From contig NZ_KE150421.1 in assembly GCF_000411295.1 (NCBI RefSeq), positions 809,478-873,477 on the forward strand: a stretch of 64,000 nucleotides of DNA, given 5' to 3'. This stretch comes from Paenisporosarcina sp. HGH0030. Lineage in GTDB: Bacteria > Bacillota > Bacilli > Bacillales_A > Planococcaceae. The first letter of the stretch is position 1, and each line of letters begins with the position of its first letter. The notes beneath the pieces were generated by a model. That model did not search any database. It was not told the DNA's origin and worked only from the letters and a program-made list of their open reading frames with translations. This document shows, in pieces, positions 34,143 through 56,949 of the stretch. The position numbers and the translations under genes are program-made.

Positions 34143-34397
34143 ATTTTCTTACATACGCTCTTTTTCATTAGTATACAGTTATATTCACTCTTTTTATTGT
34201 TTGTCTACAGTCTGAAGGAGACAACTATCAGGGATTTACATTCTTTCCTCTAGGTTTCTATTTCTAAGACCACGAAATGTTTTCGGAATATTATTGAAAT
34301 TAATATTCGTTCTCGAGATGCAGTGAAAAAACCTTCCCAACGTCTGAACTGCCCCATAAAAGTTAGACACCAATCTAACTTTTATGGGGTGTTTATT

Positions 34398-34904
34398 TTG
34401 GCCAAATTTACAAAAGAACAAAAAATTTCAGCAGTTAAACGATACTTGGATGGCAACGAGGGATATTCAACTCTCTCAAAAGAAATTGGTGTGTCACAAG
34501 TTATTCTTCGAGAGTGGGTTGGACTTTACAAGGTTTGGGGTCCTGACATCTTTGATGTATCCTATACAACGTATTCTGCAGAGTTTAAACTGGAGGTACT
34601 AAACAATATGGCGGATACAGAAAGTTCTTCTCTCGATATTGCGGTCGAATATGGCATTACCTCACCAGCAATGATTAGAAGTTGGAGAAGAGCCTTCGAA
34701 AAAGAAGGTTACGACGCCCTGTTTCCCAATAGAAAGGTTCGTCCTCCTATGAAAAAGAAATCAGAAGATAAGAAAGAGTTAACAGAGATTGATCAGTTGA
34801 AGGAGAAGGTCAAACTTTTAGAGATGGAAAACGCGTACCTAAAAAAGTTGAAAGCTTTGGTTCAAGAACAGGAAAGGTCACAAATAAAATCAAGACGCAA
34901 GTAA
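34398..34904 (+). CDS. IS3-family transposase OrfA
   Basis: A protein of about 168 residues. The N-terminal part is a helix-turn-helix DNA-binding unit ([15 protein letters not shown] and [18 protein letters not shown]), repeated once in diverged form ([20 protein letters not shown]), followed by a leucine-rich coiled coil ([18 protein letters not shown]) used for multimerisation. The start is probably TTG at 34398-34400 with TGGGGTG upstream. The upstream extension to 34323 runs out of the IS and is not real. The A_AAA_AAG site near its end allows fusion to OrfB. Confidence 0.88.
34841..34847 (+). other. Programmed -1 frameshift site A_AAA_AAG of the IS transposase
   Basis: The heptamer lies in the orfA frame as ctA AAA AAG. 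Shifting to -1 gives an open frame ([18 protein letters not shown]) that runs without a stop into orfB, producing the OrfAB transposase. Confidence 0.82.
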
Positions 34905-34948
34905 TCCTTGAACTGAAGCATCTCTACCAGGTCACCGACCTTATTAAA

Positions 34949-35743
34949 GTGGCCAGTATCAAACGGAGTGTCTATTACTACTGGGAACAGCGGTTGAATG
35001 CGCCAGACAAATATGAACTGGTAAAGAAGGCCATCACGGAGATCTACCACGAGCATAAGGGACGTTACGGGTATCGACGTATCACGATAGAACTCGAAAA
35101 CAGAGGCTTCAAACATAATCCCAAGACCATCCTTCGTCTCATGAATGACATGGGACTGAAGTGCCTGGTCCGTATGAAAAAGTACCGTTCTTACAAAGGG
35201 AATGTCGGTCATATCGCTCCAAATCATCTGAATCGTGATTTCCGTGCGGATAAAATGAACCAGAAGTGGGTCACGGACGTGACAGAGTTCCACCTGTTTG
35301 GAGAGAAACGCTACCTGTCACCCATCATGGATCTGTGCAATGGGGAAATCATCGCTTTCAAGGTCATGGCACGCCCAGTATATGAACTCGTAAGTGATAT
35401 GTTAGATCAGGCTTTGGAAAAGTTGTGTCCTGAGGATAACGTCATCCTCCACTCAGATCAAGGCTGGCATTATCAACATGCGAAATTCGTCAAGACACTC
35501 GATGCACACGGCATCACCCAGAGCATGTCCCGTAAGGGAAACTGTCTCGACAACGCAGCCATGGAGAGTTTCTTTGCCATCTTGAAGTCCGAACTTCTCT
35601 ATCTGCAAGACTTTCGAGACATCGCTCATTTTGAGAGAGAACTGGACGAGTTTATGGATTACTACAACAACAAGCGTATCAAGGCAAAATTAAAGAACCT
35701 GAGCCCAGTGAAATACCGGAGTCAGGTCCTTAAATCTGCATAA
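34949..35743 (+). CDS. IS3-family transposase OrfB (DDE catalytic domain)
   Basis: A 264-residue frame from a GTG, expressed mainly as the C-terminal part of OrfAB. It has the HTH_21 segment ([12 protein letters not shown] and [18 protein letters not shown]) and an rve integrase core with the DDE triad: D in WVTDVTEF, D in LHSDQGWHY, and E in [14 protein letters not shown]; the tail [20 protein letters not shown] is typical of IS3. All catalytic residues are intact. Confidence 0.92.
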
Positions 35744-38101: not shown

Positions 38102-41100
38102 CTACTTATTACTGTTACCTTTAATGTTCAGATATAGTTTACCTTTTGCCGTCTGGCGTGTTTCGTTATTGAAGCTATCGACTGCTTTTACTTCGATTAC
38201 CGCACCATTAGCTACTGTACCTTTTGGAACCGTATAATAGCCAACATAATGGCCGTTCGCTTGCTCTGTCATTGGCAATTCTGTAGCGTTTTGAAGTTGT
38301 CCGCCCATATTTGTTAGTGGCATATGGATTACAAAAGTTGATTTTAATCCAGGTTCACTATCAAATTCGATTTTGACAGTCTTGCCAGTTTTAAGATTGA
38401 GATCTTGGTCTGGTTTTAAGTTTGTAATGTCAGGTGAAACATATTTTGCATGTACTGTCACTGTTTTCGACATGCTGTTGTTTGCTTTATCTCTTGCTAC
38501 AACAGTAATTTCATTTGCACCAGTATCCAAAAGTATACGTTTTGAATATTTTCCGTTTACAACTGCTGCAATTTGACCGTTTACTTTCACCCAATCAAGG
38601 TTGGCATCTGCGACACTACCTTCTACTGTAACCGTTTCCCGATTTGTTTTATCTCCGTTTTTCGGGCTGTCGATTGTTAGATTTGGTTTCACTGTGTCCA
38701 AGATAACAGATACCGGAGCAGATTCGCCCGTTACTTTACCATCAAGAGATGAAGTCGCTGTAAATACATTCAATCCTTCTGTCAATTCGGTTTGAATGGC
38801 AAATTTACCATCATTTCCTACTACTACAGAACCTGCAACTCCACCATTATTTTTAAGTTTAATTGTTGTTGTAGGTGATGCACTGCCTTCAATAGTAATA
38901 GCTGACTTATTCGTTGCTAAATCAGAAGTTGGCGAAGTAATGACAGGTGCACTTACTTCATAACTTACACGAGCACGGATCATATAGTTTCCTTCCTCTG
39001 CAGGGGAAGCTGTCCATGTACCTGAAACAGATTGGTAACTTCTTTCCGCGTTTGTTCCATCTTCATCAGCAGCAAGTCCTGGTGAGTTTGGATTCGCAAC
39101 TGTTTGTCTGTAAACCATGTAGAAGTCACCATTTACAACGATGTTATGTTCAGATAAGTCTACTACCGTCCATTGACCGTTGCGTAATGCTGTTGCATTA
39201 ATTGATTCTGTGAGTTTTTTACCTGGTGTTCCATCAGGACCAGTAGCATCCCAAACTTCCACTGCAAATGCTGTTCCACCTGGTACTGGCCACTCAGTGT
39301 CCCAGAAACGGAATACGCCATCAGTAACAATGCCATTTTCTTTCCCTTCAGGAAGAGACATTTTCACTGCCCAAGCATTACCCGCTGCATTGAATGCGTG
39401 TGCATTTTCAGCTGTTCCATCATCATAACCAATTTCACCACCTGGATATGTGTAGAACGGATCAAGTGCAAGACTTAATTCAAGTGCGTTTGCACCGATT
39501 GTAACGGATGTTTCTTTACTATGGTAGCCGCGTGCAATTACCTTGAGTGTATAATTTCCTTCGTAAGCTGTGATGCTGTAGTTTCCTGATGCATCTGTTT
39601 CAACAGGAGTGATATTGGCATCTTCAACAAGTAGAAGTGTCGCGCCTTCGATTCCTTCTCCTGTCGATTCGTCAGTAATTGTTCCACTTACAGTGTTTTG
39701 TGCAATTTCATCCAAAGTGAAATTCGCTTGTGCTGTTGCGTCAGCTTCGATTGTCACCGTCTGTTGATTTGTGTGGTATCCATAAGCTTCCGCTTTCATT
39801 TTGAATGTACCAGGAACATGCGTCATTGAATATGTGCCATCTGCAGGATTTGTATATACTGAACGTCCTGATTCAAGCACACTGACTTGTGCACCAATAG
39901 GCAATAAAGTCGGATTAATCGGTGCCTCAGATACTGGCAATTCTTCTTTTACAGGCATTGAAGGTCTGATTTTTGTTGGATCAATCGCTTCTTTCATTGC
40001 TTCTTTATCATCAACTTTGATTAAGTCTAGACCAATGTTGCCTTTATTATCTTTTGAAACATTCTCAGTTTGGGCAATATCGGTTAAAGCAACATCATCG
40101 ATATACCAACCGTCTCTCACAACACTGCCATCGGAGAATGCATTGAATGCCAAGTAAACTCGTTGTCCACTATACGCTGACAAGTCTACTTCACCATCTA
40201 TCCATGAACCCGAATCACCTTGGTACTTCTGTAATTGAGTCCACTCTTGTTGGTCAGTGGAAATAAAAACATGACCATAATCCCATGCTCTTCCTGTTGA
40301 AGATTGTTCAAAATTATGCCAGTGTTTAAACTGCAGATACGAATTACCTTCTGGCAGATCAACTGGAGGGAGAACAAGTGTTGCGTTCATGTTACTGTCA
40401 TACTTACCTTCTAAATTTGTTGCATATACTTTTTCACCAGATGCCGCATTTCCTGGTCCAGAAGTAGGAACTCCCCACTCCCAGCTGTTCATATTTCCGA
40501 ATGAACTCCAGCCTGTTGCAGCAGTTTCAAAATCTTGGAAGTAACCAACAGTAATACCCGGTTTCACTTCAACCAAATATTCTTCACTATTGACAACGTT
40601 GTTTCCGAAATCATTGATGATCCATTTATAAGTGAATGATCCCCCTGTTACTGAAGTTCCAGGAACCGTAACAGCGTATTCACCAACTTTGTAGTCTCCA
40701 GAAATTCGTGGAGCCACCATAGTTTGCCATTCATTGTTTCCATCCAAATAACTTAATTCAACTGATGAAACGCTGATGTTATCTGTTACTGTTACAGCCA
40801 AGTCTAGATCCATACCTTCATACGTTTCTATAGGAGAACTATGTTCAAAGACTGGTGCTTCATCATCTTCACCTTGTTTCGTAACTTGTCCACCAATTTT
40901 TCCAATACCGTTCATGATTGAAGACACCGCTTCATACGCATTAACTAAACCATATCCATACCCGTGATTCGGTGTTTGTGGATATTGTGAGTCAGTTAAT
41001 GGGATTGCTGTTTCAAGTAAAATTTGTTCCATTTCTTCAACGGTTAAGTTAGCGTTTACTTGGCGCAACAATGCCGCGACCCCGGATATAGCTGGTCCAG

Positions 41101-42442
41101 CCATTGATGTTCCATTCCAGCCGCCTTCATAGCCACCACCAGGTACAGAAGAACGGATATTTACTCCTGGAGCCGAGATATCTGGTTTGATTTCAGCATA
41201 AGGAGAAGGTCCTCGTAAAGAGAAATTACCTACTACGTTGTTAATATCAGTTGCACCTGTTGCAAATGATTCAGGATAGTTTGCAGGTGATGCAACAGAA
41301 CCCGGACCACCTGGATTTGTTGGCGTTGTGTTTCCTGCTGAAAATTCAGGGAAAATTTCTGCTGCACGCCAGTTTCTGACTACATCACGATACCATTCGT
41401 CAAGACCTGGACCACCGCCCCACGAGTTGTTTACAACATCTGGTGCTAAGTCTACGCGTGCATTTCCTTCAGAATCTGTTGGTGCTAAAATCCATTGTGC
41501 AGCTTCTAATAAATCCGCATCTGTACCACCATTTGCAGTAAAAGCTTTTACAGAAATGAATTTAGCACCAGGAGCTACTCCAACCTGGTTGGAACCGTTT
41601 GTTTCACTACCTACCATTGTTCCAGTCACGTGAGTACCATGACCATGATCATCATAAGGTGTAGCTCGTCCAGCTGTAGCGTCAAACCAGTTAAAGTCAT
41701 GATCTGTTTGACCTGTTGAAGAATTATAACCACGGTATTTTTCTTTTAATGCTGGATGATCCCATTGAACCCCCGTATCAATGCTCGCTACAACCGTTCC
41801 TGCTCCATCAATTCCCATCGCCCATACATCTGGAGCTTTAACGCGTTGAACATTCCATTCAATATTGGCAACTTCAGATTCAGGCGCCACAGCTTCTTTC
41901 GTTTTTGTTGTGAAAAGTTGTCGCATTTCATTCGGTAGCACTTTTTCAACTTCTGCAAATGATGCTACCTTTTCTGCAACTTCTTTCGTTGCTGTTACAG
42001 CCATCCCATTTACAATATAATACGAATTAATATCCTTAACATTTCCTTTAGCTTCTTCTTGTTCAAGATAATCTTTTACATTTTGCTGCTCTTGAAGGGA
42101 AGTCGCTTTTAGCTCAGACACTAATGCAGAACGCTGGACCATTAATGATTTTTTAGAAGATAATTTCGCTTTTTTAGAACTTTTCCTAGCCTCTTCCACC
42201 ACTTTTTTCGTATCCGCTTTTTCTTTGAATTTTATTAAGAAGGTAACTTTCTCATCTTCTTTAAAATCCGACAGCAAACGTTTGCTCACTTTTTCGATTG
42301 TATTCACGTTCGAATTATTAAGCGACTGGTGCAGTTTACTAGTTGTTTCGGCACTCGCGACTCCAGGTGCGATTAGAGACAAGGTCATGAGTAAAGAAAC
42401 AGCAATGTTGAAAGACTTTTTAGAACTAATTTTCTTCGTCAT
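38102..42442 (-). CDS. Bacillopeptidase-F-like secreted subtilase 1 (S8, multidomain, 1446 aa)
   Basis: A secreted 1446-residue serine protease. Order: signal peptide (cut near 31, VASA/E), Lys-rich I9-type propeptide (60-180), S8 domain (205-505) with complete triad D222 (SIDTGVQW), H268 (GHGTH), S446 (NGTSMAGP) and oxyanion N371 (SAGN), an Ig-like region, a MAM/immune-inhibitor-A-like lectin fold (640-790, ending WYIDDVAL), two carboxypeptidase-regulatory-like modules (850-1010), an EIGYDDGTAEN module, Ig-like repeats (1170-1340) and a C-terminal beta domain. No LPxTG or S-layer anchor, so it is released. Matches Bpr (1433 aa) of B. subtilis in size and layout. GGGAGG precedes the ATG; monocistronic. 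Confidence 0.92.
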   Translation of the reverse strand: MTKKISSKKSFNIAVSLLMTLSLIAPGVASAETTSKLHQSLNNSNVNTIEKVSKRLLSDFKEDEKVTFLIKFKEKADTKKVVEEARKSSKKAKLSSKKSLMVQRSALVSELKATSLQEQQNVKDYLEQEEAKGNVKDINSYYIVNGMAVTATKEVAEKVASFAEVEKVLPNEMRQLFTTKTKEAVAPESEVANIEWNVQRVKAPDVWAMGIDGAGTVVASIDTGVQWDHPALKEKYRGYNSSTGQTDHDFNWFDATAGRATPYDDHGHGTHVTGTMVGSETNGSNQVGVAPGAKFISVKAFTANGGTDADLLEAAQWILAPTDSEGNARVDLAPDVVNNSWGGGPGLDEWYRDVVRNWRAAEIFPEFSAGNTTPTNPGGPGSVASPANYPESFATGATDINNVVGNFSLRGPSPYAEIKPDISAPGVNIRSSVPGGGYEGGWNGTSMAGPAISGVAALLRQVNANLTVEEMEQILLETAIPLTDSQYPQTPNHGYGYGLVNAYEAVSSIMNGIGKIGGQVTKQGEDDEAPVFEHSSPIETYEGMDLDLAVTVTDNISVSSVELSYLDGNNEWQTMVAPRISGDYKVGEYAVTVPGTSVTGGSFTYKWIINDFGNNVVNSEEYLVEVKPGITVGYFQDFETAATGWSSFGNMNSWEWGVPTSGPGNAASGEKVYATNLEGKYDSNMNATLVLPPVDLPEGNSYLQFKHWHNFEQSSTGRAWDYGHVFISTDQQEWTQLQKYQGDSGSWIDGEVDLSAYSGQRVYLAFNAFSDGSVVRDGWYIDDVALTDIAQTENVSKDNKGNIGLDLIKVDDKEAMKEAIDPTKIRPSMPVKEELPVSEAPINPTLLPIGAQVSVLESGRSVYTNPADGTYSMTHVPGTFKMKAEAYGYHTNQQTVTIEADATAQANFTLDEIAQNTVSGTITDESTGEGIEGATLLLVEDANITPVETDASGNYSITAYEGNYTLKVIARGYHSKETSVTIGANALELSLALDPFYTYPGGEIGYDDGTAENAHAFNAAGNAWAVKMSLPEGKENGIVTDGVFRFWDTEWPVPGGTAFAVEVWDATGPDGTPGKKLTESINATALRNGQWTVVDLSEHNIVVNGDFYMVYRQTVANPNSPGLAADEDGTNAERSYQSVSGTWTASPAEEGNYMIRARVSYEVSAPVITSPTSDLATNKSAITIEGSASPTTTIKLKNNGGVAGSVVVGNDGKFAIQTELTEGLNVFTATSSLDGKVTGESAPVSVILDTVKPNLTIDSPKNGDKTNRETVTVEGSVADANLDWVKVNGQIAAVVNGKYSKRILLDTGANEITVVARDKANNSMSKTVTVHAKYVSPDITNLKPDQDLNLKTGKTVKIEFDSEPGLKSTFVIHMPLTNMGGQLQNATELPMTEQANGHYVGYYTVPKGTVANGAVIEVKAVDSFNNETRQTAKGKLYLNIKGNSNK

Positions 42443-45076: not shown

Positions 45077-45148
45077 AAATATCCCCCTTAACAATTCAAA
45101 CACCTCTCTCATTTTACCATAATGACTGAAAAGTTCTTCAATTCTTTA

Positions 45149-45194
45149 CAAAAAAACAAGACCATTTATCAGGGATAAGTGGTCTTGTTTTTTA
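45149..45194 (-). terminator. Terminator after subtilase 2
   Basis: Arms AAAAAACAAGACCATTTATC (45151-45170) and GATAAGTGGTCTTGTTTTTT (45174-45193) with two mismatches; the U-tract is on the minus strand. It lies about 65 bases past the subtilase 2 stop. Confidence 0.85.
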
Positions 45195-45257
45195 AAGTAT
45201 TATTTGAGTCACGGAAATTTTTTATCAGCCATTGCAATTCTAATTGGGATATAGGTT

Positions 45258-48200
45258 TTACTTGACATACACTTTACCAGCGGCTGTTCGACGAGATTCA
45301 TTTCCATAAGCATCTCTCAACGCCACTTCGATCACAGCACCGTTGATCCTGTCTTTTGGTGCCTTCCAGGTACCAACATAGTGACCTTTTCCTTGTTCTG
45401 TTAATGGTATTTCAACAGAAGCGGCGGTTGCGGATGCAAAGGCTGAAGGTACGCTTAACGAGAAGAAACCACTAATTCCTGGCTCACTATCTAGTTCGAC
45501 GGTCAACGTCGTACCCCTTTTTATCACCACATCTTGAGCTGGTTTTAAGTTTTCGATCGCAGGTGGATTAAACTTGGCGTAAACAGTGACTACATTGCTA
45601 GTTTCGTTTCCAGCACGGTCCTTTGCAGTGACAGTAAATTTATTTTCTCCATTATTGAGCAGTACATCTAGGGAGTAGAAGCCATCTTTTGTGACATTCA
45701 CTTTTTGACCATTTATAGTGACTTCTGCTAGATATGGATCGGTCGCTTTTCCTTCGATCGTAACTGCTTGTTTATTTGTCTTTAAGCCATCAGCAGGTTT
45801 GGTGGTTAGTTCTGGTTTTGCTTGGTCAAGGGTAATCTTCACTGGCTCGGACGGATCCGTACTGCCTCGATCAGTAGAAGATGAAGCTGTCAGCACGTTC
45901 TCACCATCTTGAAGGGTAACATCTACAGAGAAGGTACCATCCTTTTTAGCTGTTGTGATAGCTACTTCTTCGCCTTTATTGAAAAGATGAACTTGAGTAG
46001 TTGGTGAAGCGGTCCCTTCTACTGTGAAAGTAGATTGATTGGTGTGGGCTGCATCTTTAGGCGTTGTGATCACTGGAGCCGACGCATCATATTTTACCCG
46101 TGCCCGAATCATTACGTTTTCGTAACGGTCTGGGGAGAAAACTCCGTCAACCAGTTGCCAGCTGCGACTAGCGGTTGGACTGCTTTTATCAACACCGAGT
46201 CCTGGTGTATTCGGGTAGGAGCCTACTTGGATATAGACCATATAGAAGGTGTCGGTTACCACGACTCCTTCGCTTTCCAGATCGACAACCGTCCATTCTC
46301 CATTACGCAGAGCAGTCGCATCAAATGGACCCGCAATTTTTTTACCAGGAGTATTATTTGGTCCATTATCATAGATGGCAACCTTAAAGGCTGTTCTACC
46401 TGGATCCGGCCAACTTTCATCCCAGAAGCGGAATAGACCAGCGGTGACTAAGGCGCTTTTTTTACCTTCAGGTAAAAACATTTTTACAGCCCAACCATCT
46501 CCAGCAGTAAACGAAGCATTATGATTTTCTGCTGTCCCATCATCATAGCCGATCTCATCAGGATAGCCGACAAATGGTTGTAACGGAACGTTTTGTTCGA
46601 TATTTCCGTTTGCTGGTATGGTGATCGTGATATCTTGACTATGATAGAAAGGCGCGGTTACATGCAAGGAATAGGTTCCTTCATAGGCAGTGATGGAAAA
46701 GTGTCCGTTTTCATCTGTTTGTACAGGTTGAATGAGCGCGTCTTCGAGCAGAGAGAGCGTTGCGTTAGCTAGCGGCTGACCTGTTTGCTTATTTGTGACA
46801 GTTCCGCTAACCGTTCCTTTCGGGATCGGGTTTATAGTAAAGTTGGCTTCTACTGTACCATTTTTAGGAATCGTCACTCGTTGATCTGCAGATTCATATC
46901 CATATGTTTCAGCACGTAAGGTGAACTCACCAGCAGGATGAGTCATACCATAGCTACCATCCGCTGGGTTGGTGGCAACAGAACGTCCTGATTCGAGCAC
47001 GCTCACTGTAGCTCCAAGTGGCAGGGACATGGGTTGGACTGCTGTCGGCGTGATTGTCGCGGCGGGTGCCATCACGTTTTGTATTTTGGTTGGTTGGATG
47101 GTATCCGGGTTGACTGCTTTTTTATTGGTTTGTGGCTCATTTTCCAGTTGTTTAGCTAACAGTTTTTGTTGTTGTACATCTTCTAGTTCTACATTGGCTG
47201 TGGTATGTGGTGTATTGCTTAAGGCGACATCATCGATATACCAACCTGCGCTCCCATAAGCAGCGTCTGTAGTGACGTTAAAGGCGATATAGATTTGTTG
47301 ACCAGCATATGCGGATAGATCGATCTGGCGCTCCGTCCATGTGTCAGATTTACCAGTGAAGCGGGACAGCTGTTGCCAATTTTGTTTGTCTGTCGACACA
47401 AGCACATGACCATAGTCGGCGAAGCCGTCCGCTGTGGCGTTGTCAAGTCGATACCAGTCTTTAAACTGTAGATAGGCGTTACCTTCAGGCAAGTCGATTG
47501 GAGGCATCATCAAGTTCATATTGGCATAGTTGGCATAGTTGCCATTTAATTTGGTTCCGTATACTTTTTCACCAGAAGCGGCCATTCCTGGTCCACCGGT
47601 AGGTACTCCCCACTCCCAGCTGTTGTTGGTACCGTAGGAGATCCAACCACTTGGTTGAGATTCAAAATCTTGATGGTACCCGGTGCTGATTCCAGATTTG
47701 ACTGGTACTGCGTAATTGTCAGAAGTAACCACATGTTGCGCATAGTCCGTGATGCGCCAATGATAGGTAAGGGTTGGGACCTGTACGGCATCAGCCGGAA
47801 TCACGGCTTGGTAAGTTCCGCTCTTATAGTCACCTGCTGTACGAGTTGCAGCTACAGTTTGCCATTCGGCAGATTCGCTTGCACGATATTTTAGCTCAAC
47901 ACTTCTTACATTGACATTATCTTGTACTTGAATAGTAAGAGGTAATGTCATATTCGCATATAATTCAGTTGGAGCGGTATGCTGATAAGTTGGATTCTCT
48001 GTATCTTGACCTTCACGAACCACTTGTCCCTGAACTCGGCCTATTCCGTTGACAATGGCGGAGACAGCGTTATAGGCGTTTACTAGACCATGACCATAAC
48101 CATTGTTTGGTGAAGTTGGATAGGTGGAGTCAGTTAATGGTATTGCCGAATTCATTAAAATTGCTTCCATTTCATCAACGGTAAGAGAGGCATTCGCCTG

Positions 48201-49598
48201 CTTCATCAAAGCAACGACTCCAGCAACGGCTGGTGCAGCCATCGAAGTTCCTTGCATGCCTCGATATAGACTACCTGGTACGGAAGATCGGATGGCCACA
48301 CCTGGAGCGGAAATGTCTGGCTTCCCTTCTCCATATGGCGAAGGACCGCGTGAGGAGAAACCAGCAATCCGATTCTCACTATCAGTTGCGCCAACAGCGA
48401 ACGATTCCGGATAGTTGGCTGGGATAGAGATGCTTCCAGCATTCGGACCGACATTTCCAGCAGAGAAATTAGGGAAAATATCGGCTGCACGCCAGTTTTG
48501 CACCATTAGGCGGTACCATTCATTTATTCCATTTCCACCGCCCCAGGAGTTGTTCACTACGTCAGGTGCTTTTTCTGGATGTGGGTTGCCTTCTGCATCT
48601 TTTGGAGCTAGAATCCATTCTCCAGCTTTCAGTAGATCTTCGGCGGTTCCACCGGCCGAGGTAAAGGCTTTCACCGCGATCCATTTTGCACCTGGAGCGA
48701 CACCGATTTGGTTCGTGCCATTAGGCTCAGAACCCACCATCGTACCCACGGTGTGAGTTCCGTGACCAAGATCATCAAAAGGTGCAGATTTTCCCGTAAT
48801 AGCGTCATACCAGTTGTAAGTGTTATCAGGTTGATTTGGATTGGCTGGGTTGTAACCCCGATACTTTTCTTTTAAAGCAGGGTGATTCCACTGGACTCCT
48901 GTATCGATACTAGCGACTACAGTTCCCGCACCATCAATGCCCATATTCCAGACATGTGGTACGTCGATTTTTGCAATATTCCATTCGATTGAAGTGGTGT
49001 CTGCTTGGGTATCAGCTGTTGGTTGGATGGGTGTTTTACTGCTTTCATTTGAGATCAGCTGTACCGTTTCGTTGGGCTGGATTTTTTCGACTTCAGGGAA
49101 GGCAGCAAGCTTCTCCATCACTTCTTTGGTTCCTGTCACCGCCATGCCATTGACGATATAGAAGGATTGAAACTCTTTGACATTTCCCTTCTTTTTTTCT
49201 TGATCCAGATAGGTTTTGATCGAGTATTGAGTTTCGCTAGCTTTAGTGCGAAGGGAAGAAACGACAGCAGAGCGTTTCATCAATTCGGTTTTGGCAGCCG
49301 TTTGTTTTTGAGCTTTAGCCTTTTTAGCTGTTTCGGTGGCAACTTCTTTTGTATCCACTTGATCTTTTAATTTTACTAAAAAGGTAACCGTATCATTCTC
49401 ACTAAACTGATCATTCAGTTTTTTATCTACCTTTGCTTTCACGTTTTCAGATGCTACATCCGAACTTTCAAGAAGAGAAATACTTTCTTCGGAGTTGGAA
49501 TTAGCAAAGGTGAGTTGAGTTAGAAAGGTTGAGAGCAACAATAATGCACATAAAATAAAACTAAATGCAATGCGGTAATGTCTGTTCCTTTTTATCAA
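45258..49598 (-). CDS. Bacillopeptidase-F-like secreted subtilase 2 (S8, multidomain, 1446 aa)
   Basis: Paralogue of subtilase 1 with the same domain order: signal peptide (residues 10-32, cut after FA/N), I9-like propeptide (65-180), S8 domain with full triad D232 (SIDTGVQW), H279 (GHGTH), S452 (QGTSMAAP) and oxyanion N382 (SAGN), MAM/immune-inhibitor-A-like domain (ending WYIDDVAL), two CarboxypepD_reg-like modules, Ig-like repeats and a C-terminal beta domain. Predicted to be an active, released endoprotease. The start is TTG: GGGGGG lies about 8 bases upstream, and the next codon, ATG in the neighbour paralogue, has become ATA here. It follows subtilase 3 after 105 bases with a hairpin between, so it may be read from the same promoter. 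Confidence 0.92.
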   Translation of the reverse strand: MIKRNRHYRIAFSFILCALLLLSTFLTQLTFANSNSEESISLLESSDVASENVKAKVDKKLNDQFSENDTVTFLVKLKDQVDTKEVATETAKKAKAQKQTAAKTELMKRSAVVSSLRTKASETQYSIKTYLDQEKKKGNVKEFQSFYIVNGMAVTGTKEVMEKLAAFPEVEKIQPNETVQLISNESSKTPIQPTADTQADTTSIEWNIAKIDVPHVWNMGIDGAGTVVASIDTGVQWNHPALKEKYRGYNPANPNQPDNTYNWYDAITGKSAPFDDLGHGTHTVGTMVGSEPNGTNQIGVAPGAKWIAVKAFTSAGGTAEDLLKAGEWILAPKDAEGNPHPEKAPDVVNNSWGGGNGINEWYRLMVQNWRAADIFPNFSAGNVGPNAGSISIPANYPESFAVGATDSENRIAGFSSRGPSPYGEGKPDISAPGVAIRSSVPGSLYRGMQGTSMAAPAVAGVVALMKQANASLTVDEMEAILMNSAIPLTDSTYPTSPNNGYGHGLVNAYNAVSAIVNGIGRVQGQVVREGQDTENPTYQHTAPTELYANMTLPLTIQVQDNVNVRSVELKYRASESAEWQTVAATRTAGDYKSGTYQAVIPADAVQVPTLTYHWRITDYAQHVVTSDNYAVPVKSGISTGYHQDFESQPSGWISYGTNNSWEWGVPTGGPGMAASGEKVYGTKLNGNYANYANMNLMMPPIDLPEGNAYLQFKDWYRLDNATADGFADYGHVLVSTDKQNWQQLSRFTGKSDTWTERQIDLSAYAGQQIYIAFNVTTDAAYGSAGWYIDDVALSNTPHTTANVELEDVQQQKLLAKQLENEPQTNKKAVNPDTIQPTKIQNVMAPAATITPTAVQPMSLPLGATVSVLESGRSVATNPADGSYGMTHPAGEFTLRAETYGYESADQRVTIPKNGTVEANFTINPIPKGTVSGTVTNKQTGQPLANATLSLLEDALIQPVQTDENGHFSITAYEGTYSLHVTAPFYHSQDITITIPANGNIEQNVPLQPFVGYPDEIGYDDGTAENHNASFTAGDGWAVKMFLPEGKKSALVTAGLFRFWDESWPDPGRTAFKVAIYDNGPNNTPGKKIAGPFDATALRNGEWTVVDLESEGVVVTDTFYMVYIQVGSYPNTPGLGVDKSSPTASRSWQLVDGVFSPDRYENVMIRARVKYDASAPVITTPKDAAHTNQSTFTVEGTASPTTQVHLFNKGEEVAITTAKKDGTFSVDVTLQDGENVLTASSSTDRGSTDPSEPVKITLDQAKPELTTKPADGLKTNKQAVTIEGKATDPYLAEVTINGQKVNVTKDGFYSLDVLLNNGENKFTVTAKDRAGNETSNVVTVYAKFNPPAIENLKPAQDVVIKRGTTLTVELDSEPGISGFFSLSVPSAFASATAASVEIPLTEQGKGHYVGTWKAPKDRINGAVIEVALRDAYGNESRRTAAGKVYVK

Positions 49599-49642
49599 TT
49601 TGATTTCCCCCCTAAAATTTGCTTACATTAAGACTTCATTTT

Positions 49643-49690
49643 AGAATCATCTTTCACCTTTCACCTAAAAGGTAAGTGAAAGATGATTCT
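49643..49690. repeat. Perfect 15-bp inverted repeat between subtilases 3 and 2
   Basis: AGAATCATCTTTCAC (49643-49657) and its exact complement (49676-49690), with a smaller ACCT/AGGT pairing inside the 18-base loop. Neither side has a U-tract (AAAATG and ATCAAT follow), so it is not a classical terminator. It begins 14 bases after the stop of subtilase 3 and ends about 45 bases before the start of subtilase 2. Confidence 0.85.
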
Positions 49691-49703
49691 ATCAATCTAT
49701 GAT

Positions 49704-52700
49704 TTACTGAGGTTTTACGTTGACATACACTTTACCAGCGGCTGTTTGACGAGATTCGTTTCCATGATCATCTCTCATCACCACTTCGATCACAGCACCG
49801 TTGATTTTTTCTTTTGGTGCCTTCCAGATACCAACATAGTGACCTTTTCCTTGCTCTGTTAATGGTATTTCAACAGAAGTGGCGGCTGTCGTTGCGGTTG
49901 CAAAGGTTGAAGGTAATCGGACCAAGAAGAAGCCATTAATTCCTTGCTCACTATCTAGTTCGACGGTCAACGTTTTACCCGTTTTTATCACCACATTTTG
50001 AGCTGGTTTTAAGTTTTCGATCGCAGGTAGATTAAACTTGGCGTAAACAGTGACTTCCTTGCTAGTTTCGTTTCCAGCACGATCCTTTGCAGTGACAGTA
50101 AATTTATTTTCTCCATTATTGAGTAGTACGCGTAGGGAGTAGGAGCCATCTTCTGTGAGATTCGCATTTTGACCATTTATAGTGACTTCTGCTAGATATG
50201 GATCGGTCGCTTTTCCTTCGACCGTAACCGCTTTCTGATTCGTTTTGAAGCCTTCAGCAGGTTTGGTGGTTAGTTCTGGTTTTGCTTGGTCAAGGATGAT
50301 CTTCACTGGCTCGGACGGATCTGTACTACCTCGATCAGTAGAAGAGGTAGCTGTCAGCTCGTTTTCACCATCTTGAAGGGTAACATCTACAGAGAAGGTA
50401 CCATCCTTTCTAGCTGTTGTGGCAGCAACTTCTTCGCCTTTATTGAAAAGATGAACTTGAGTAGTTGGTGAAGCTTTCCCTTCTACTGTGAAAGTAGATT
50501 GATTGGTGTGGGCTGCATCTTTAGGCGTTGTAATCACTGGAACCGACGCTTCATATTTTACCCGTGCCCGAATCATAAAGTTTCCAGTCGTTCTACCCCA
50601 TGGCCCTTCCACCTTTTGCCAGCTACGACCCGCGCTTGGACTGCTTTGATCAATAGCAAGACCTGGTGTATTCGGGGCGACGCCTACTTGGATATAGACC
50701 ATATAGAAGTCGTCGTTTACTAGAACTGGGTTTACCAGATCGACAACCGTCCATTCTCCATTACGCAGAGCAGTCGCATCTAATGGACCCGCCAATTTTC
50801 TACCAGGAGCACCATTCGGTCCACTGGTATCATAGATGGCAACCTTAAAGGCTGTTCCACCTGGATCCGGCCAACTTTCATCCCAAAAGCGGAAGAGACC
50901 AGCGGTGACGAAGGCGCTATTTTTGCCTTTAGGTAGAGACATTTTTACAGCCGCAACGTTGTTTTCTGCATTAGGAGCACCGAAAGCGCGAGCGTTTTCC
51001 GCTGTCCCATCATCATAGCCGATCTCATCAGGATAGCCGATAAATGGTTGTAACGGAACATTTTGTTCGATATTTCCACTTTCTAGGATAGTGATCGTTA
51101 AATCTTGGCTATGATAGATAGGCCCAGATACATGTAAGGTATAGGTTCCTTCATAGGCAGTGATGGAAAAGTGTCCGTTTTCATCTGTTTGTACAGGTTG
51201 AATGAGCGCGTCTTCGAGCAGAGAGAGTGTTGCGTTAGCTAGTGGCTCACCTGTTTGCTTGTTTGTGACAGTTCCGCTAACCGTTCCTTTTGGGATCGGG
51301 TTTAAGGTAAAGTTGGCTTCTACTGTACCATTTTTAGGAATCGTCACTCGTTGATCTGCAGATTCATATCCATATGTTTCAGCACGTAAGGTGAACTCAC
51401 CAGAAGGATGAGAATTAATAACATAGCTACCATCAATTGGGTTGGTGGTAACAGAACGTCCTGATTCGAGCACACTTACTGTAGCTCCAAGTGGCAGGGA
51501 CATGGGTTGGACTGCTGTCGGCGTGATCGTGGCGGTAGGTGCCATCACGTTTTGTATTTTGGTTGGTTGGATGGTATCCGGGTTGACTGCTTTTTTATTG
51601 GTTTGTAGCTCATTTTCCAGTTGTCTAGCTAACATTTTTTGTTGTTGTACATCTTCTAGTTCTACATTGGCTGTGGTAAGTGGTGTATTACTTAAGGCGA
51701 CATCATCGATATACCAACCTGCTCTCTCGCCAATCTCGTCTGTGGTGACGTTAAAGGCGACATAGATTTGTTGACCAGCATATGCGGATAGATCGATTTG
51801 GCGCTCCGTCCATGTCATAGAGTTACCAGTGAACCTCGACAGCAGTTGCCAGTTTTGTTTATCTGTCGACACAAGCACATAACCATAATCGTAGCCGCTT
51901 TCAATTTGATACCAGTCTTTAAACTGCAGATAGGCGTTACCTTCAGGCAGGACGATTGGAGGCATCATCAAGCTCATATTGGCAAAATTGTTATAGTTAC
52001 CATCTAAATTGGTTCCGTACACTTTTTCACCAGAAGCGGCCTTTTCCGGTCCAGAGTCAAAGGCAGGCACTCCCCACTCCCAAGTGTTTTTGGTACCGTA
52101 GGAGATCCAACCAATTGGTTGAGATTCAAAATCTTGATGGTAACCGGTGTTGATTCCAGATTTGACTGGTACTGCGTAATTGTCAGAAGTAACCACGTGT
52201 TCCCCATGGTCCGTGATGCGCCAATGATAGGTAAGGGTTGGGACCTGTACGGCATCAGCCGGAATCACGGCCTGGTACGTTCCGCTCTTATAGTCACCTG
52301 CGGTAAGAGTTGCCGCCGCTGTTTGCCATTCGGCAGTTTCGCTTGCACGATATTGTAGCTCTACACTTCTTACACTGACAGTGTCTTGTACTTGAACAGT
52401 AAGAGGTAATGTCATATTCGAATATGTTTCAGATGGAGCGGTATGCTGATAAGTTGGATCCTCAGTATCTTGACCTTCACGAACCACTTGTCCCTGAACT
52501 CGGCCAAGTCCGCTGACAATGGAGGAGACAGCGTTATAGGCGTTTACTAGACCATAACCATAACCATTGTTTGGTGAATCTGGATAGGTGGAATCAGTTA
52601 ATGGCATTGCCGTATCATGTAAAATTTGTTCAATTTCATCAACAGTAATAGATGGATTCGCCTGCTTCATCAAGGCAACGACTCCAGCAACGTGTGATGC

Positions 52701-54089
52701 ACCCGCCGAAGTCCCATTCAATGCTTGATAGCCGCTACCTGACCAGGCAGAGCGGACGCCCACACCTGGAGCGGAAATGTCTGGCTTCATTTCTCCATAT
52801 GGCGAAGGACCGCGTGGGGAGAAATAAGCACGCTGATTATTACTATCCGTTACGCCAACAGCGAACGATTCCGGATAGTTGGCCGGGTTCCAGATGTTTC
52901 CCTCAGTCAAACCTGCTCCATTTCCAGCAACGAACACAGGGAAAATCTCAGCTGCACGCCAGTTTTGCACCATTGGACGGTACCATTCATCGTTTTCTGC
53001 TAGTCGTTTACCCCAGGCGTTGTTCACTAAGTCAGGTGCTTTTTCTGGATGTGGGTTGCCTTCTGCATCTTTTGGAGCTAGAATCCATTCTCCAGCTTCC
53101 AGTAGATCGACTTGGGTTCCGGTTCCACCTCGACTGTTAAAGGCTTTCACGGCGATCCATTTTGCACCTGGAGCAACCCCAATTTGATTTGAACCATTAG
53201 GTCCAGAACCTACCATGATTCCTGTGACGTGGGTACCTTGTTCAGCGTCATCATATGGAGCCGACTTCCCATTAACAGCATCAAACCAGTTGAAGGTATT
53301 GTCAGGTTGATCTGGATTAGCTGGGTTGTAACCTCGATACTTTTCTTTTAACGTAGGGTGATTCCACTGGACTCCTGTATCGATACTAGCGACTACAGTT
53401 CCCGTACCATCAAAGCCCATATTCCAGGCTTGTGGTGCGTCGATTTTTGCTATATTCCATTCGATTGAAGTGGTGCCTGCTTGGGTATCAGCTGTTGGTT
53501 GGATATCAACTATTGGTTGGTTGGATGTTTCACTGCCTTCATTTGAGGCCAGCTGTACCGTTTCGTTGGGTGTTATTTTTTCGACTTCTGGGAAGGTAGC
53601 AAGCTTCTCCATCACTTCTTTGGTTCCTGTTACCGCCATGCCATTGACGATATAGAAGGATTGAAACTCTTCGACATTTCCCTTCTTTTTTTCTTGATCC
53701 AGATAGGTTTTAATCGAGTATTGAGTTTCGCTAGCTTTAGCGCGAAGGGAAGAAACGACAGCAGAGCGTTTCATCAATTCGGTTTTGGCAGCAGTTTGTT
53801 CTTGAGCTTTAGCTTTTTTAGCTGTTTCAATGGCAACTTCTTTTGTATCCACTTGATCTTTAAGTTTTAATAAAAAAGTAACCGTTTCATTCTTACTAAA
53901 CTGATCATTCAGTTTTTTATCTACCTTTTCTTTCATGTTTTTAGAAGCTACATCAGAACTTTCAAGCATAGAAATACTTGCTTTGGAGTTGGAATTAGCA
54001 AATGTGAGTTGAGGTAGAAAGGTAGTGAGCAACAATAATGCACATAAAATAAAACTAAATACGACGCGGTCATGTCTGTTCCTTTTCAT
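49704..54089 (-). CDS. Bacillopeptidase-F-like subtilase 3, predicted inactive (catalytic His replaced by Gln)
   Basis: A 1461-residue paralogue with the full architecture and signal peptide of subtilase 2, but an altered active site (numbering from the TTG frame at 54092): D238 is kept (SIDTGVQW), the HGTH motif reads QGTH so Gln285 (codon CAA, 53238-53240) stands where the catalytic His belongs, N391 is kept (VAGN) and S462 is kept (NGTSAGAS, with the usual Met of TSMA changed to Ala). NNSWGGG is changed to NNAWGKR. The reading frame is intact over 4.4 kb, which argues for selection as a pseudoprotease or for very recent loss. The start ATG (54087-54089) follows GAGAGGAG by 8 bases. The two C-terminal thirds are nearly identical to subtilase 2. 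Confidence 0.92.
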   Translation of the reverse strand: MKRNRHDRVVFSFILCALLLLTTFLPQLTFANSNSKASISMLESSDVASKNMKEKVDKKLNDQFSKNETVTFLLKLKDQVDTKEVAIETAKKAKAQEQTAAKTELMKRSAVVSSLRAKASETQYSIKTYLDQEKKKGNVEEFQSFYIVNGMAVTGTKEVMEKLATFPEVEKITPNETVQLASNEGSETSNQPIVDIQPTADTQAGTTSIEWNIAKIDAPQAWNMGFDGTGTVVASIDTGVQWNHPTLKEKYRGYNPANPDQPDNTFNWFDAVNGKSAPYDDAEQGTHVTGIMVGSGPNGSNQIGVAPGAKWIAVKAFNSRGGTGTQVDLLEAGEWILAPKDAEGNPHPEKAPDLVNNAWGKRLAENDEWYRPMVQNWRAAEIFPVFVAGNGAGLTEGNIWNPANYPESFAVGVTDSNNQRAYFSPRGPSPYGEMKPDISAPGVGVRSAWSGSGYQALNGTSAGASHVAGVVALMKQANPSITVDEIEQILHDTAMPLTDSTYPDSPNNGYGYGLVNAYNAVSSIVSGLGRVQGQVVREGQDTEDPTYQHTAPSETYSNMTLPLTVQVQDTVSVRSVELQYRASETAEWQTAAATLTAGDYKSGTYQAVIPADAVQVPTLTYHWRITDHGEHVVTSDNYAVPVKSGINTGYHQDFESQPIGWISYGTKNTWEWGVPAFDSGPEKAASGEKVYGTNLDGNYNNFANMSLMMPPIVLPEGNAYLQFKDWYQIESGYDYGYVLVSTDKQNWQLLSRFTGNSMTWTERQIDLSAYAGQQIYVAFNVTTDEIGERAGWYIDDVALSNTPLTTANVELEDVQQQKMLARQLENELQTNKKAVNPDTIQPTKIQNVMAPTATITPTAVQPMSLPLGATVSVLESGRSVTTNPIDGSYVINSHPSGEFTLRAETYGYESADQRVTIPKNGTVEANFTLNPIPKGTVSGTVTNKQTGEPLANATLSLLEDALIQPVQTDENGHFSITAYEGTYTLHVSGPIYHSQDLTITILESGNIEQNVPLQPFIGYPDEIGYDDGTAENARAFGAPNAENNVAAVKMSLPKGKNSAFVTAGLFRFWDESWPDPGGTAFKVAIYDTSGPNGAPGRKLAGPLDATALRNGEWTVVDLVNPVLVNDDFYMVYIQVGVAPNTPGLAIDQSSPSAGRSWQKVEGPWGRTTGNFMIRARVKYEASVPVITTPKDAAHTNQSTFTVEGKASPTTQVHLFNKGEEVAATTARKDGTFSVDVTLQDGENELTATSSTDRGSTDPSEPVKIILDQAKPELTTKPAEGFKTNQKAVTVEGKATDPYLAEVTINGQNANLTEDGSYSLRVLLNNGENKFTVTAKDRAGNETSKEVTVYAKFNLPAIENLKPAQNVVIKTGKTLTVELDSEQGINGFFLVRLPSTFATATTAATSVEIPLTEQGKGHYVGIWKAPKEKINGAVIEVVMRDDHGNESRQTAAGKVYVNVKPQ

Positions 54090-54533
54090 CAATTCGACTC
54101 CTCTCTGAAATCGCTTACATTAAGACTTGAGTTACAAGGATATTTTTAACTGTTGTAGATGACCACCGACTTTCTATGGATAGATTTGATCTTTGACCTT
54201 TGCTCTCTTTTCCCCCCTTGCATGATAATGAATACAATTCGAAGTGTACATCCGCCTTAAAAAATAGTAAATTGGGGGATTTCACATGAAACTATTAATA
54301 TATTTTTTGAAAATTCAATACTAAAAAATGTTAGTTAAGTCCTTATTTCAAAAGAATTTTCAGTTATTTTGTAGAAGAATGTTGTGAATATTGTCTGAAA
54401 TTTTAGTTTTTTAATGAACTTAGTTTTAAAATCTGGGGGAATATAGAAATTTCTCGTAATTTTTTAGAAATAAATTTAACAATAATAGATTAAAACAGGA
54501 AAAAAGTTCTAATTGTTGATATTCCAGATAAAT

Positions 54534-54567
54534 AAAAAAACCTTGATAACATATTGTTTACCAAGGC
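54534..54567 (-). terminator. Isolated terminator with no gene upstream
   Basis: CCTTGATAAC (54541-54550) pairs with GTTTACCAAGG (54556-54566), and the A-run 54534-54540 gives a seven-U tract on the minus strand. The nearest minus-strand gene upstream (DinG-like) already has its own terminator 400 bases away. Confidence 0.7.
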
Positions 54568-54963
54568 TCTGTATATAGTGGTTCACCCACATGTTAATTA
54601 GAAAAATCAAAGTAATTTCGCATTAATAATTTTGGCAAGCTCATTAAATCTTCAAATGAAATCTATTTCCCAATTTTCTTCGTATCAATTAGGAATAATT
54701 GGTCTTCAACCTGCCGTTAGTTTAAGTGAAGACCTTCACAATCTCAATGACATATTCAAACTCGAATAATCTAATAAAACACCCCTTTAGATAACCATAT
54801 CCAAAGGGATATAACGGTACATCTTTTTTATAAACGGTACGACTTTATTTCAAAGCTACACCATGGGGAGAAACTGGAGCACCTCATAAAGGATTTTGTA
54901 CGAAACAATATTTGAAAGGAAATCGCACTACTCCCCTTCAATGCTAACTTCCAAAAAATTTAA

Positions 54964-55008
54964 TAAAAAACTGAAGACAAACTCAAAAAATGCGAGTTTG
55001 TCTTCAGT
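54964..55008 (-). terminator. Terminator after the DinG-like helicase gene
   Basis: Perfect 14-bp arms CTGAAGACAAACTC (54971-54984) and GAGTTTGTCTTCAG (54994-55007), U-tract TTTTTT on the minus strand. Confidence 0.9.
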
Positions 55009-55038
55009 CTGAGCCTATTTATCAGGATGGGCTTTACT

Positions 55039-56949
55039 TTATACCCATGATATTTCTACTGGGAGTATATGTGTAAAATCTGTACTCAATTGCTTTTCAT
55101 CATCATTCAGTAACAAGTGGATGGATCCATGATCGGCAGATGTCCGTATCAAACGGCCAATTCCTTGTTGAAGGCGTAACAACATAAACGGCAATTCGAC
55201 TTCTGCAAAAGGATCATTAGAAAATTTTCGTTTCGCATCGAACAAAGGATCATGCGGAGGGAAAGGTAAATCAAATATAATCACGCGTGTTAAAGCTTCT
55301 GCAGGCAAATCAAGCCCTTCCCATAAATGGTATGAACATAATGTAGCGATATGCCCAGCTTGGAAATCACGCACAATGGATGATAATTCACGTTCTCCTT
55401 CAAAAACCATACCCATTCTTTCTTCAACTGAAAGGGAATTTTCAAAATTCACCATATCACTCTTCGACTTGAACAATAACAAAGTGGGCTCTTTAGATTG
55501 CAAGAGTAGTTCTCGTGCTTTCTTTGCTTTCGTTTCACTATCGACAGAATGACCAAATATCTGCATTACTTGGTCGTAATCAAATGGAGATGGAACACTA
55601 AACGAATGGTACTGATCGATACCCAAAGCATCTGAAATATAGGTGAAGTCTTTATTAACCGATAAAGTGGCTGAAGAGAAAACAACAGGTAATTTATTTG
55701 TGAATAATTTTTCATTTAAAATATCTGTTACTAGACGTGGCATGATGACTAATGTCTCAATACCGTCTTTTTCTTCCAACCAATCGACCGCATCTCCATT
55801 TTGAACAAATAATTGGAGTGAAAATACATATTGTTCCAAGTATTCTTCTACCATACGAAGATCATATTCATCAATCGTATAAAGCTCTGATTCAAATACA
55901 AATTCTTCTAAAATTTGTTCTACTAATTTCACAAGCTGTTGGCCAAGCTGAAGAACACGGTCTGTTTTATCTATATGGAGACGTTCTCCTTCTTCACCAT
56001 GTGCATGAGTAAGCAATTCTTTGAAGAAATCATCATGTAAGTCCTGCAATCTTTCTAGCAATTGCAATGTCTTTTCACGTACGCCATCTTGTGCGACACG
56101 GTCAATCAATGACACAAGCGTTTGGCTCTGTACTTCATAAGTCAATGCACGTTGAGCAGCGAATTCCAATAAATGACCTTCATCCAGTACAATCATCGAA
56201 ACGTCAGGAAGTAAAGGCATTTGTCCTTCACGTACACGCGATTCTTTTGTCCAAATGTGTTCCATTAAGAAATCATGCGAACAAATAATCAAATCTCCAG
56301 CTTCACGGTAATTTTGTCGATGAATAGTTTGACCGCAACGGTTGCGGATATCACAAACGGCACATTGCTGAATCGGATGATAATTTACTTTTTGCCAATC
56401 CTCGTCACTGACATCCGGAAAAGCACTGCGCTCTCCGTATGGGTAAACCGATTGGAGCGACTGATGACCGTACACAAAATCAGGAATTCCATCTTCAATT
56501 TGTTCCAGGAATTCTTCATCATTCGTTTTTTGTTCGTGCTCAAGTCTCTTTAAACATAAATATTGGTCACGTGATTTTGCTAGACGGACATCAATGTTCC
56601 ATCCTAGTGAATCTTGTAATTTTTGAATATCTCCTTCTTTTTTAACGAGCTGATCAATTAACGTCTCATCAGCACACGAAATCAAAGCAGGTTTTCCTGT
56701 GTATCGCGCATAGGAAATTGCCGGAAGTAAATAAGCAATCGTCTTCCCTGTTCCTACGCCAGCTTCGGCAAACAAAACATTTTTATTTTTCAAAGATTTT
56801 TCAATCTGATAGGCCATATAAATCTGCTCATCACGACATTCGAATCCTTTTTCAGGAAGTTCATCATAAAGAACGTCTCCCATCCAATCACCTAGTGATT
56901 CAAAAAAAGAGCGGTCTTTCGTTAGTGCAAATGGTAATGTTTGCTTCAT
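55039..56949 (-). CDS. ypvA: DinG/XPD-like Fe-S DNA helicase (YpvA)
   Basis: A 636-residue SF2 helicase of the DinG type without an exonuclease domain. Walker A is AEAGVGTGKTIAYL, motif II is LDEGH, motif III-like FSSATLS, motif VI GIGRLIRTSADHG. Four cysteines placed as in XPD/DinG Fe-S helicases (C in QYLCLKRL; C, C and C in QQCAVCDIRNRCG) probably hold a 4Fe-4S cluster. It should unwind 5'-3' and act on R-loops or damaged DNA. Length and position beside the RlmL-like gene match YpvA. Confidence 0.9.
   Translation of the reverse strand: MKQTLPFALTKDRSFFESLGDWMGDVLYDELPEKGFECRDEQIYMAYQIEKSLKNKNVLFAEAGVGTGKTIAYLLPAISYARYTGKPALISCADETLIDQLVKKEGDIQKLQDSLGWNIDVRLAKSRDQYLCLKRLEHEQKTNDEEFLEQIEDGIPDFVYGHQSLQSVYPYGERSAFPDVSDEDWQKVNYHPIQQCAVCDIRNRCGQTIHRQNYREAGDLIICSHDFLMEHIWTKESRVREGQMPLLPDVSMIVLDEGHLLEFAAQRALTYEVQSQTLVSLIDRVAQDGVREKTLQLLERLQDLHDDFFKELLTHAHGEEGERLHIDKTDRVLQLGQQLVKLVEQILEEFVFESELYTIDEYDLRMVEEYLEQYVFSLQLFVQNGDAVDWLEEKDGIETLVIMPRLVTDILNEKLFTNKLPVVFSSATLSVNKDFTYISDALGIDQYHSFSVPSPFDYDQVMQIFGHSVDSETKAKKARELLLQSKEPTLLLFKSKSDMVNFENSLSVEERMGMVFEGERELSSIVRDFQAGHIATLCSYHLWEGLDLPAEALTRVIIFDLPFPPHDPLFDAKRKFSNDPFAEVELPFMLLRLQQGIGRLIRTSADHGSIHLLLNDDEKQLSTDFTHILPVEISWV

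Follow-up and report, generated by a model that had tools for sequence, protein, structure and literature searches.

The 64,000-nucleotide stretch of Paenisporosarcina sp. HGH0030 analysed here (contig NZ_KE150421.1; hereafter the window) carries three minus-strand genes for multidomain subtilases, which we take to be of the bacillopeptidase F-like, S08.017 type. Gene A, the subject of this report, is predicted to encode a secreted subtilase-like pseudoprotease in which glutamine stands at the position of the catalytic histidine. Gene B, directly 3' of A, encodes a twin with intact catalytic residues, and gene C encodes a resident subtilase of the same kind that served for comparison. Coordinates are collected in Table 1.

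The frame of gene A is open throughout. The product has 1462 amino acids from TTG 54092 and 1461 from ATG 54089; the TTG aligns with the TTG of its relatives, so the gene is better delimited as in Table 1 than as 49704–54089, the span given in an earlier note on this DNA. The residue numbers of that note (Asp238, Asn391, Ser462) hold with the TTG start; counted from the ATG, the residues are Asp 237, Gln 284, Asn 390 and Ser 461. Pfam models identified an I9 prodomain, Peptidase_S8, an InhA-like MAM domain, two CarboxypepD_reg domains, Big_6 and two Glucodextran_B domains, a content that matches that of B and, mostly, that of C. The Peptidase_S8 match (PF00082) scored 179.1 bits (cut-off 21.8) and covered profile positions 1–288 of 288.

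The histidine motif of A reads GAC GCT GAA CAA GGT ACC CAC on the minus strand (D-A-E-Q-G-T-H), against D-L-G-H-G-T-H in B. This direct reading confirmed the glutamine described earlier, together with the retained Asp, oxyanion Asn and Ser; the neighbours of the Ser are replaced (GTSAGAS) and the S1/S3–S4 substrate-strand segment is NNAWGKR, both as previously written. With Gln at the His position, A does not carry the Asp-His-Ser triad of an active S8 peptidase. A and B are 82% identical overall (pro region 88%, S8 domain 76%, accessory domains 83%); the twins share the accessory domains, although their earlier description as nearly identical was too strong. The genome (3.5 Mb) is protease-rich, having 28 Peptidase_S8 regions, many within large frames; A is the only one without the motif His or Ser, the Asp not being seen for all of them.

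Table 1. Features of the gene A locus (window coordinates).
Feature	Position	Strand	Evidence or remark
Gene A, secreted multidomain subtilase-like pseudoprotease (predicted)	49704–54092	-	open reading frame, Pfam domains, orthologues with His lost, AlphaFold model
S8 domain of A with degenerate cleft, residues 206–530	52500–53474	-	PF00082 at 228–513
Codon CAA (Gln) at catalytic His position of A	53238–53240	-	read directly from sequence
Ser codon TCG at catalytic position of A, motif GTSAGAS	52707–52709	-	residue 461 from ATG 54089
Gene B, twin subtilase, intact Asp-His-Asn-Ser	45258–49598	-	TTG start; open reading frame, Pfam domains, AlphaFold model
A–B gap, 105 bp, strong hairpin, no T run after it	49599–49703	-	z -4.6; -30.6 kcal/mol for the folded stretch
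Leader element GTCGGTGGTCATCTACAACA upstream of A	54151–54170	-	single copy in own genome
Stretch carrying A and B	45113–55038	.	between the DinG-like helicase and M32 carboxypeptidase genes; absent from same-genus G005
DinG-like helicase gene, flank of the A and B stretch	55039–56949
M32 carboxypeptidase gene, flank of the A and B stretch	43571–45112
Gene C, resident subtilase of same kind, intact motifs	38102–42442	-	~52% identical to A; comparison only

Gene A is not an isolated oddity. A contig scan gave relatives at 73–80% identity in Cytobacillus citreus, Bacillus sp. 7884-1, Neobacillus niacini F8, Peribacillus alkalitolerans and ‘Sporosarcina’ globispora DSM 4, along with two more loci, 48–49% identical to A, that keep the His and Ser motifs intact. 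Genome searches added copies from G309, another genome of the window's species, and from genomes G124 and G094, bringing the A-type copies found to ten, in nine genomes. The histidine is lost in every one of them, to Gln (codon CAA) in eight and to Arg in the other two (Cytobacillus and G094), and the Asp is kept in every one. At the catalytic Ser position there is Met in five copies, Tyr in two, Gln in one and Ser in two (the window and G309), and the A copy of Bacillus sp. 7884-1 has also exchanged its oxyanion Asn for His. In the six Gln copies from species other than the window's, Ser, Gly or Arg replaces the second His of the QGTH motif; the GGTGTQ and SWGKxx loops of the Gln-type copies carry insertions. 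All ten frames are open, nine of them over ~4.4 kb and the contig-edge copy as far as its sequence reaches. Bacillus sp. 7884-1 (G062) also has homologues with in-frame stops (L095, L096), which are decayed, unlike the open A frames.

The pairing with B is equally regular. A lies directly 5' of B in all nine loci with downstream DNA, the tenth contig stopping 169 bases past A, and in the nine B twins the triad and the Asn are intact. The view of A as a likely pseudoprotease beside a twin is strengthened by this pairing and by a loss of His that is shared and old. The twin had also been called active; its catalytic residues are indeed intact, and from these residues B is presumed to be an active protease. 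G094 carries two separate dead/active pairs (L157 and L158), one of them Gln-type and the other Arg-type.

The genome searches covered 193, 261, 43 and 397 genomes, with a further one, at the order level for the window, again covering 261; among the matches listed the remaining homologues were only ~45–55% identical. Scoring was confined to the top two candidates of each genome (except in the 43-genome search) and listing to matches below an E-value of 1e-280 or 1e-300, so that further copies are possible. Among the fetched loci, 136 distinct domains were assessed for the state of the His; 103 were complete and intact, nine had the His replaced, and the remaining 24, incomplete or poorly aligned, were counted neither way. 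Viral contigs gave three stretches but no relative, and of 244 plasmid records none exceeded 60%.

A tree of the S8 domains placed the eight Gln copies in one clade (support 100/99; 99/98 after dropping the columns around the motifs), and an approximately unbiased (AU) test rejected a clade of the window's A and B (p 0.0004). At third codon positions of residues 241–300 the window's A agrees with Neobacillus A at 92% and with its own B at 58%. The loss of His is shared and old among the Gln copies. In the S8 tree the two Arg copies fall with B; a single clade uniting every A copy is nevertheless not rejected by the AU test (p 0.234), and the His may have been lost once or twice. The tree of the accessory domains groups the A and B of each locus.

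Selection was examined with an in-house Nei-Gojobori count of the nonsynonymous to synonymous rate ratio (dN/dS). The window's A and Neobacillus A differ by 647 substitutions, none of which makes a stop, where ~25 stops would be expected without constraint, showing that the A protein is kept. By its sequence, A qualifies as a pseudoprotease, that is, a protease homologue lacking catalytic residues and kept by selection. The prodomain is constrained (dN/dS 0.16–0.52 over nine A contrasts). The S8 domain gave 0.44–1.93 over differing pairs of Gln copies and 0.31–2.26 over pairs of their twins, with the highest values in six contrasts between two Neobacillus-type subgroups (A 1.41–1.93, B 1.03–2.26); window contrasts gave 0.71–0.79 for A, and the window against Neobacillus niacini 0.75 for A and 0.56 for B. 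The controls were 140 pairs of fetched homologues, 86–99.5% identical, of which one, a pair of two A copies, was removed by the dS filter. In the 139 pairs of ordinary homologues left, the S8 dN/dS had a median of 0.033 and a maximum of 0.081 and was always below that of the accessory domains; the values of the Gln copies are ~13–58 times the control median. At kappa 2, three contrasts of A depart from neutrality towards positive selection (p 0.012–0.026); for three contrasts of B the p values are 0.009, 0.10 and 0.38, and the window contrasts show no such departure. The two Arg copies gave 3.77, a small-count extreme (one silent and twelve replacement changes), and their twins 0.24.

Furthermore, the changes concentrate in the substrate cleft, whose segments were taken from substrate-site positions of subtilisin BPN' and mapped by eye through an alignment with M-protease rather than by distances. 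In the Neobacillus-type sets, 31% of cleft positions vary in A against 12% elsewhere, and 20% against 11% in B. The differences between A and B of one locus show the same pattern (cleft against elsewhere: window 46% and 16%, Cytobacillus 31% and 11%, Neobacillus 53% and 23%). Three control sets of 7–8 ordinary homologues showed no concentration of variable sites in the cleft.

The AlphaFold2 model of A residues 40–545 (prodomain and S8 domain) has a subtilase fold with a mean predicted local distance difference test score (pLDDT) of 87.1 and a disordered linker, and the equivalent B model has a mean pLDDT of 87.8. The succession of elements is much the same in both models, and the helices after the His and Ser positions are among those shared. 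For the A model, Foldseek gave Tk-SP, subtilisin E and Tk-subtilisin, each in its pro-form, as the best matches. These models predict that the fold of A survives while its catalytic centre and cleft loops are changed.

The pair appears to have reached the window's species horizontally, as a two-gene insertion. In G005, of the same genus, the dinG-like and M32 genes (96% and 93% identical to those of the window) adjoin each other, less than 100 bp apart. The empty site was seen in this one of the four regions fetched for it; the G003 contig ends too early, and the DNA upstream of C in G006 and G029 revealed neither of the two flanking genes. In the family-level search of 261 genomes, close relatives of A were listed only in the two genomes of the window's species. 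Moreover, the GC content of A and B is 45–46%, against 38–41% for the neighbouring DinG, M32 and C genes, and ATTTATCAGG occurs at both edges of the stretch (45164–45173 and 55017–55026), inside inverted repeats. Upstream of A the stretch has no other frame above 56 amino acids, apart from antisense frames inside A and B. A and B are presumably co-transcribed.

Taken together, these observations are best explained if A is a maintained, horizontally acquired secreted pseudoprotease whose role is to bind, probably as the non-catalytic companion of B, a reading to which we assign a probability of about 0.5. A would be co-secreted with B and would fold with the aid of its own I9 prodomain, which it could not cleave. 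The shared accessory domains would dock it at the targets of B, and the reshaped S8 cleft would be a binding site in place of an active site. There A could bind cleft-directed ligands (a propeptide, a protein inhibitor or a substrate segment) or B itself, and such binding would tune or protect the activity of B. The step from a maintained binding protein to one that acts through B is taken from the repeated pairing of the genes. A may act as a partner, scaffold or folding partner, roles suggested in the earlier note. Tentatively, the pair may be a mobile two-gene module of Bacilli, protease and dead twin, shaped by extracellular molecular conflict, with both clefts diversifying, the prodomain and fold held, and the dead member serving as a regulatory subunit or ligand trap; this is possible, though less probable than a companion role as such.

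Several points weigh against A being a companion of B. In the S8 domain of B, dN/dS above 1 is significant in one of the three Neobacillus-type contrasts (kappa 2), the A contrasts are borderline at kappa 1 (p 0.03–0.06), and in the contrasts of the window with Neobacillus dN/dS does not exceed 1 in either gene. Accessory-domain dN/dS is raised too (0.33–0.94 against a control median of 0.075), so that part of the S8 signal may be relaxed constraint, and cleft dN/dS does not exceed that of the remaining S8 domain in all contrasts. Homogenisation of the twins by gene conversion is suggestive only, as the AU test on the accessory domains does not reject a Gln-type A clade (p 0.315), and ATTTATCAGG at the edges is weak evidence because it occurs three times in the window, counting either strand. 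The dead/active pair is rare, the companion role is read from genes and models, and a single duplication plus transfer could have left the two genes linked by inheritance.

Inherited linkage is part of the view that A works alone, as a secreted binder of a peptide, glycan or surface ligand, its place beside B being left over from tandem duplication and the transfer of both genes together. Duplication and transfer would suffice for the linkage, and it is the cleft of A that changes most, with the loop insertions of the Gln copies included; the pairing in all nine testable loci and the diversification of B's cleft speak against it, and we consider a solitary role doubtful. A decoy, or sponge, would show a protease-like face to the soluble protease inhibitors of competitors and so spare B. 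The two proteins have one architecture and a predicted secreted location in common, and the concentration of change in the substrate clefts of A and B alike is what conflict between protease and inhibitor would predict. However, it is chiefly in the cleft that A departs from its own B, at the very positions that a mimic should retain. The decoy proposed in the earlier note is disfavoured by this in the form of mimicry of the own twin, and a decoy of any kind appears unlikely.

Decay into a pseudogene might account for an S8 dN/dS near 1 in the window contrasts of A and for the loss of Ser in eight of the ten copies and of Asn in one. Against this stand the open frames, the absence of stops between window and Neobacillus, the constrained prodomain, the intact predicted fold and a loss that is common to several genera and was retained through transfer; we rejected decay as a general answer and hold it to be very unlikely for A. 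Weak or altered catalysis through the kept Ser and Asp, or through the second His of QGTH, has about as little to recommend it: the window's A does retain Asp, Asn, Ser and that His, but among the other copies neither Ser nor second His is dependable, and the neighbours of the Ser are replaced as well. Takeover by the neighbouring His was rejected, that residue not being conserved, and residual catalysis of any form is most improbable. An error of sequencing or assembly in the one codon was likewise rejected and has a negligible chance of being the explanation, since CAA is found in the second genome of the species (G309) and in six other copies.

Protease-fold proteins that act through binding are not new. 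The working triad of PCSK9 serves one self-cleavage, and iRhoms are binding proteins with a protease fold other than that of subtilases. PCSK9, as portrayed in parts of PMC12880746, resembles A as proposed here in being a protease-fold protein acting through binding. According to parts of PMC6636752 and PMC12880746, the CspC and CspA pseudoproteases of Clostridioides difficile are encoded with an active homologue, CspB; in CspC the Asp is kept, His has become Thr and Ser has become Gly, and the prodomain is uncleaved. Germination is controlled by a CspC:CspA heterodimer, both members of which are dead (same sources, in part). Like that set, A is a subtilase-fold pseudoprotease with Asp kept that is encoded with an intact homologue, the physical pairing of A and B being proposed only; unlike A, the Csp proteins, in the same partial accounts, are spore proteins with a jelly-roll insertion, from another lineage and compartment. 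A scored 36.2 bits (CspC; cut-off 675) and 40.9 bits (cut-off 1250) against the Csp models NF040808 and NF040809 and is not a member of the group. By analogy, the C. difficile Csp set is the nearest working analogue of A, and a pseudoprotease encoded beside an active homologue is an already known kind. PIMMS2, a subtilisin-like pseudoenzyme of Plasmodium, lacks the His in some orthologues and has degraded motifs and is still required for function (PMC5520436, in part); it shares the subtilase fold with A but is eukaryotic, and the passages available from that paper mention no twin gene.

Like bacillopeptidase F-like subtilases, A has I9, S8, MAM, carboxypeptidase-regulatory, Glucodextran_B and Big domains, and it is ~45–55% identical over its full length to homologues in many Bacilli genomes. 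Unlike them, the A copies lack the His (10 of 10) and mostly the Ser (8 of 10) and have altered cleft loops. No NCBIfam subtilase model reached its cut-off for A. In the literature covered, mostly outside subscription journals, no description of A's family, its mobility or diversification of two clefts was found, and the bacterial subtilase pseudoproteases encountered were spore proteins of the C. difficile type; the parts seen of a survey of Bacillaceae subtilases (PMC9549277) held no passage on dead subtilases. If the proposal is true, a conserved, mobile dead/active subtilase pair would offer a tractable system for asking what use a dead protease is to a living one, and its clefts would be a natural series of variants in a fold of industrial importance. 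The order in which residues were lost is informative in its own right: no copy keeps the His, most lack the Ser and none lacks the Asp.

Some further observations concern the surroundings of the pair. In relatives, a leader-type repeat element takes the place of the window's hairpin in the A–B gap: TTGGTGGYCATCTACAACA or a close variant, present in the window at the leader element, occurs there in L071 (8901–8919), L073 (13495–13513) and L156 (7729–7767), and in some relatives it is duplicated in tandem. The leader element is possibly a regulator or an RNA element. Tetratricopeptide repeat (TPR) proteins of ~350–407 amino acids lie near the pair in three genera (L071:2460–3521, L073:18426–19481, L074:3508–4731), TPR-like frames are also present in L156 and L158, and none was seen adjoining the pair in the window. 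The L074 protein, scanned from its helix-turn-helix (HTH) end, has an HTH_3 match slightly under the curated cut-off, in which it resembles RRNPP quorum-sensing regulators. The Neobacillus pair adjoins genes for a small secreted protein and a signal peptidase-like protein (L073:19804–21086), which we take to be camelysin- and SipW-like. On the far side of gene C, the window carries a two-frame transposase with HTH_Tnp_1 and rve domains (34323–35743), presumably IS3-like.

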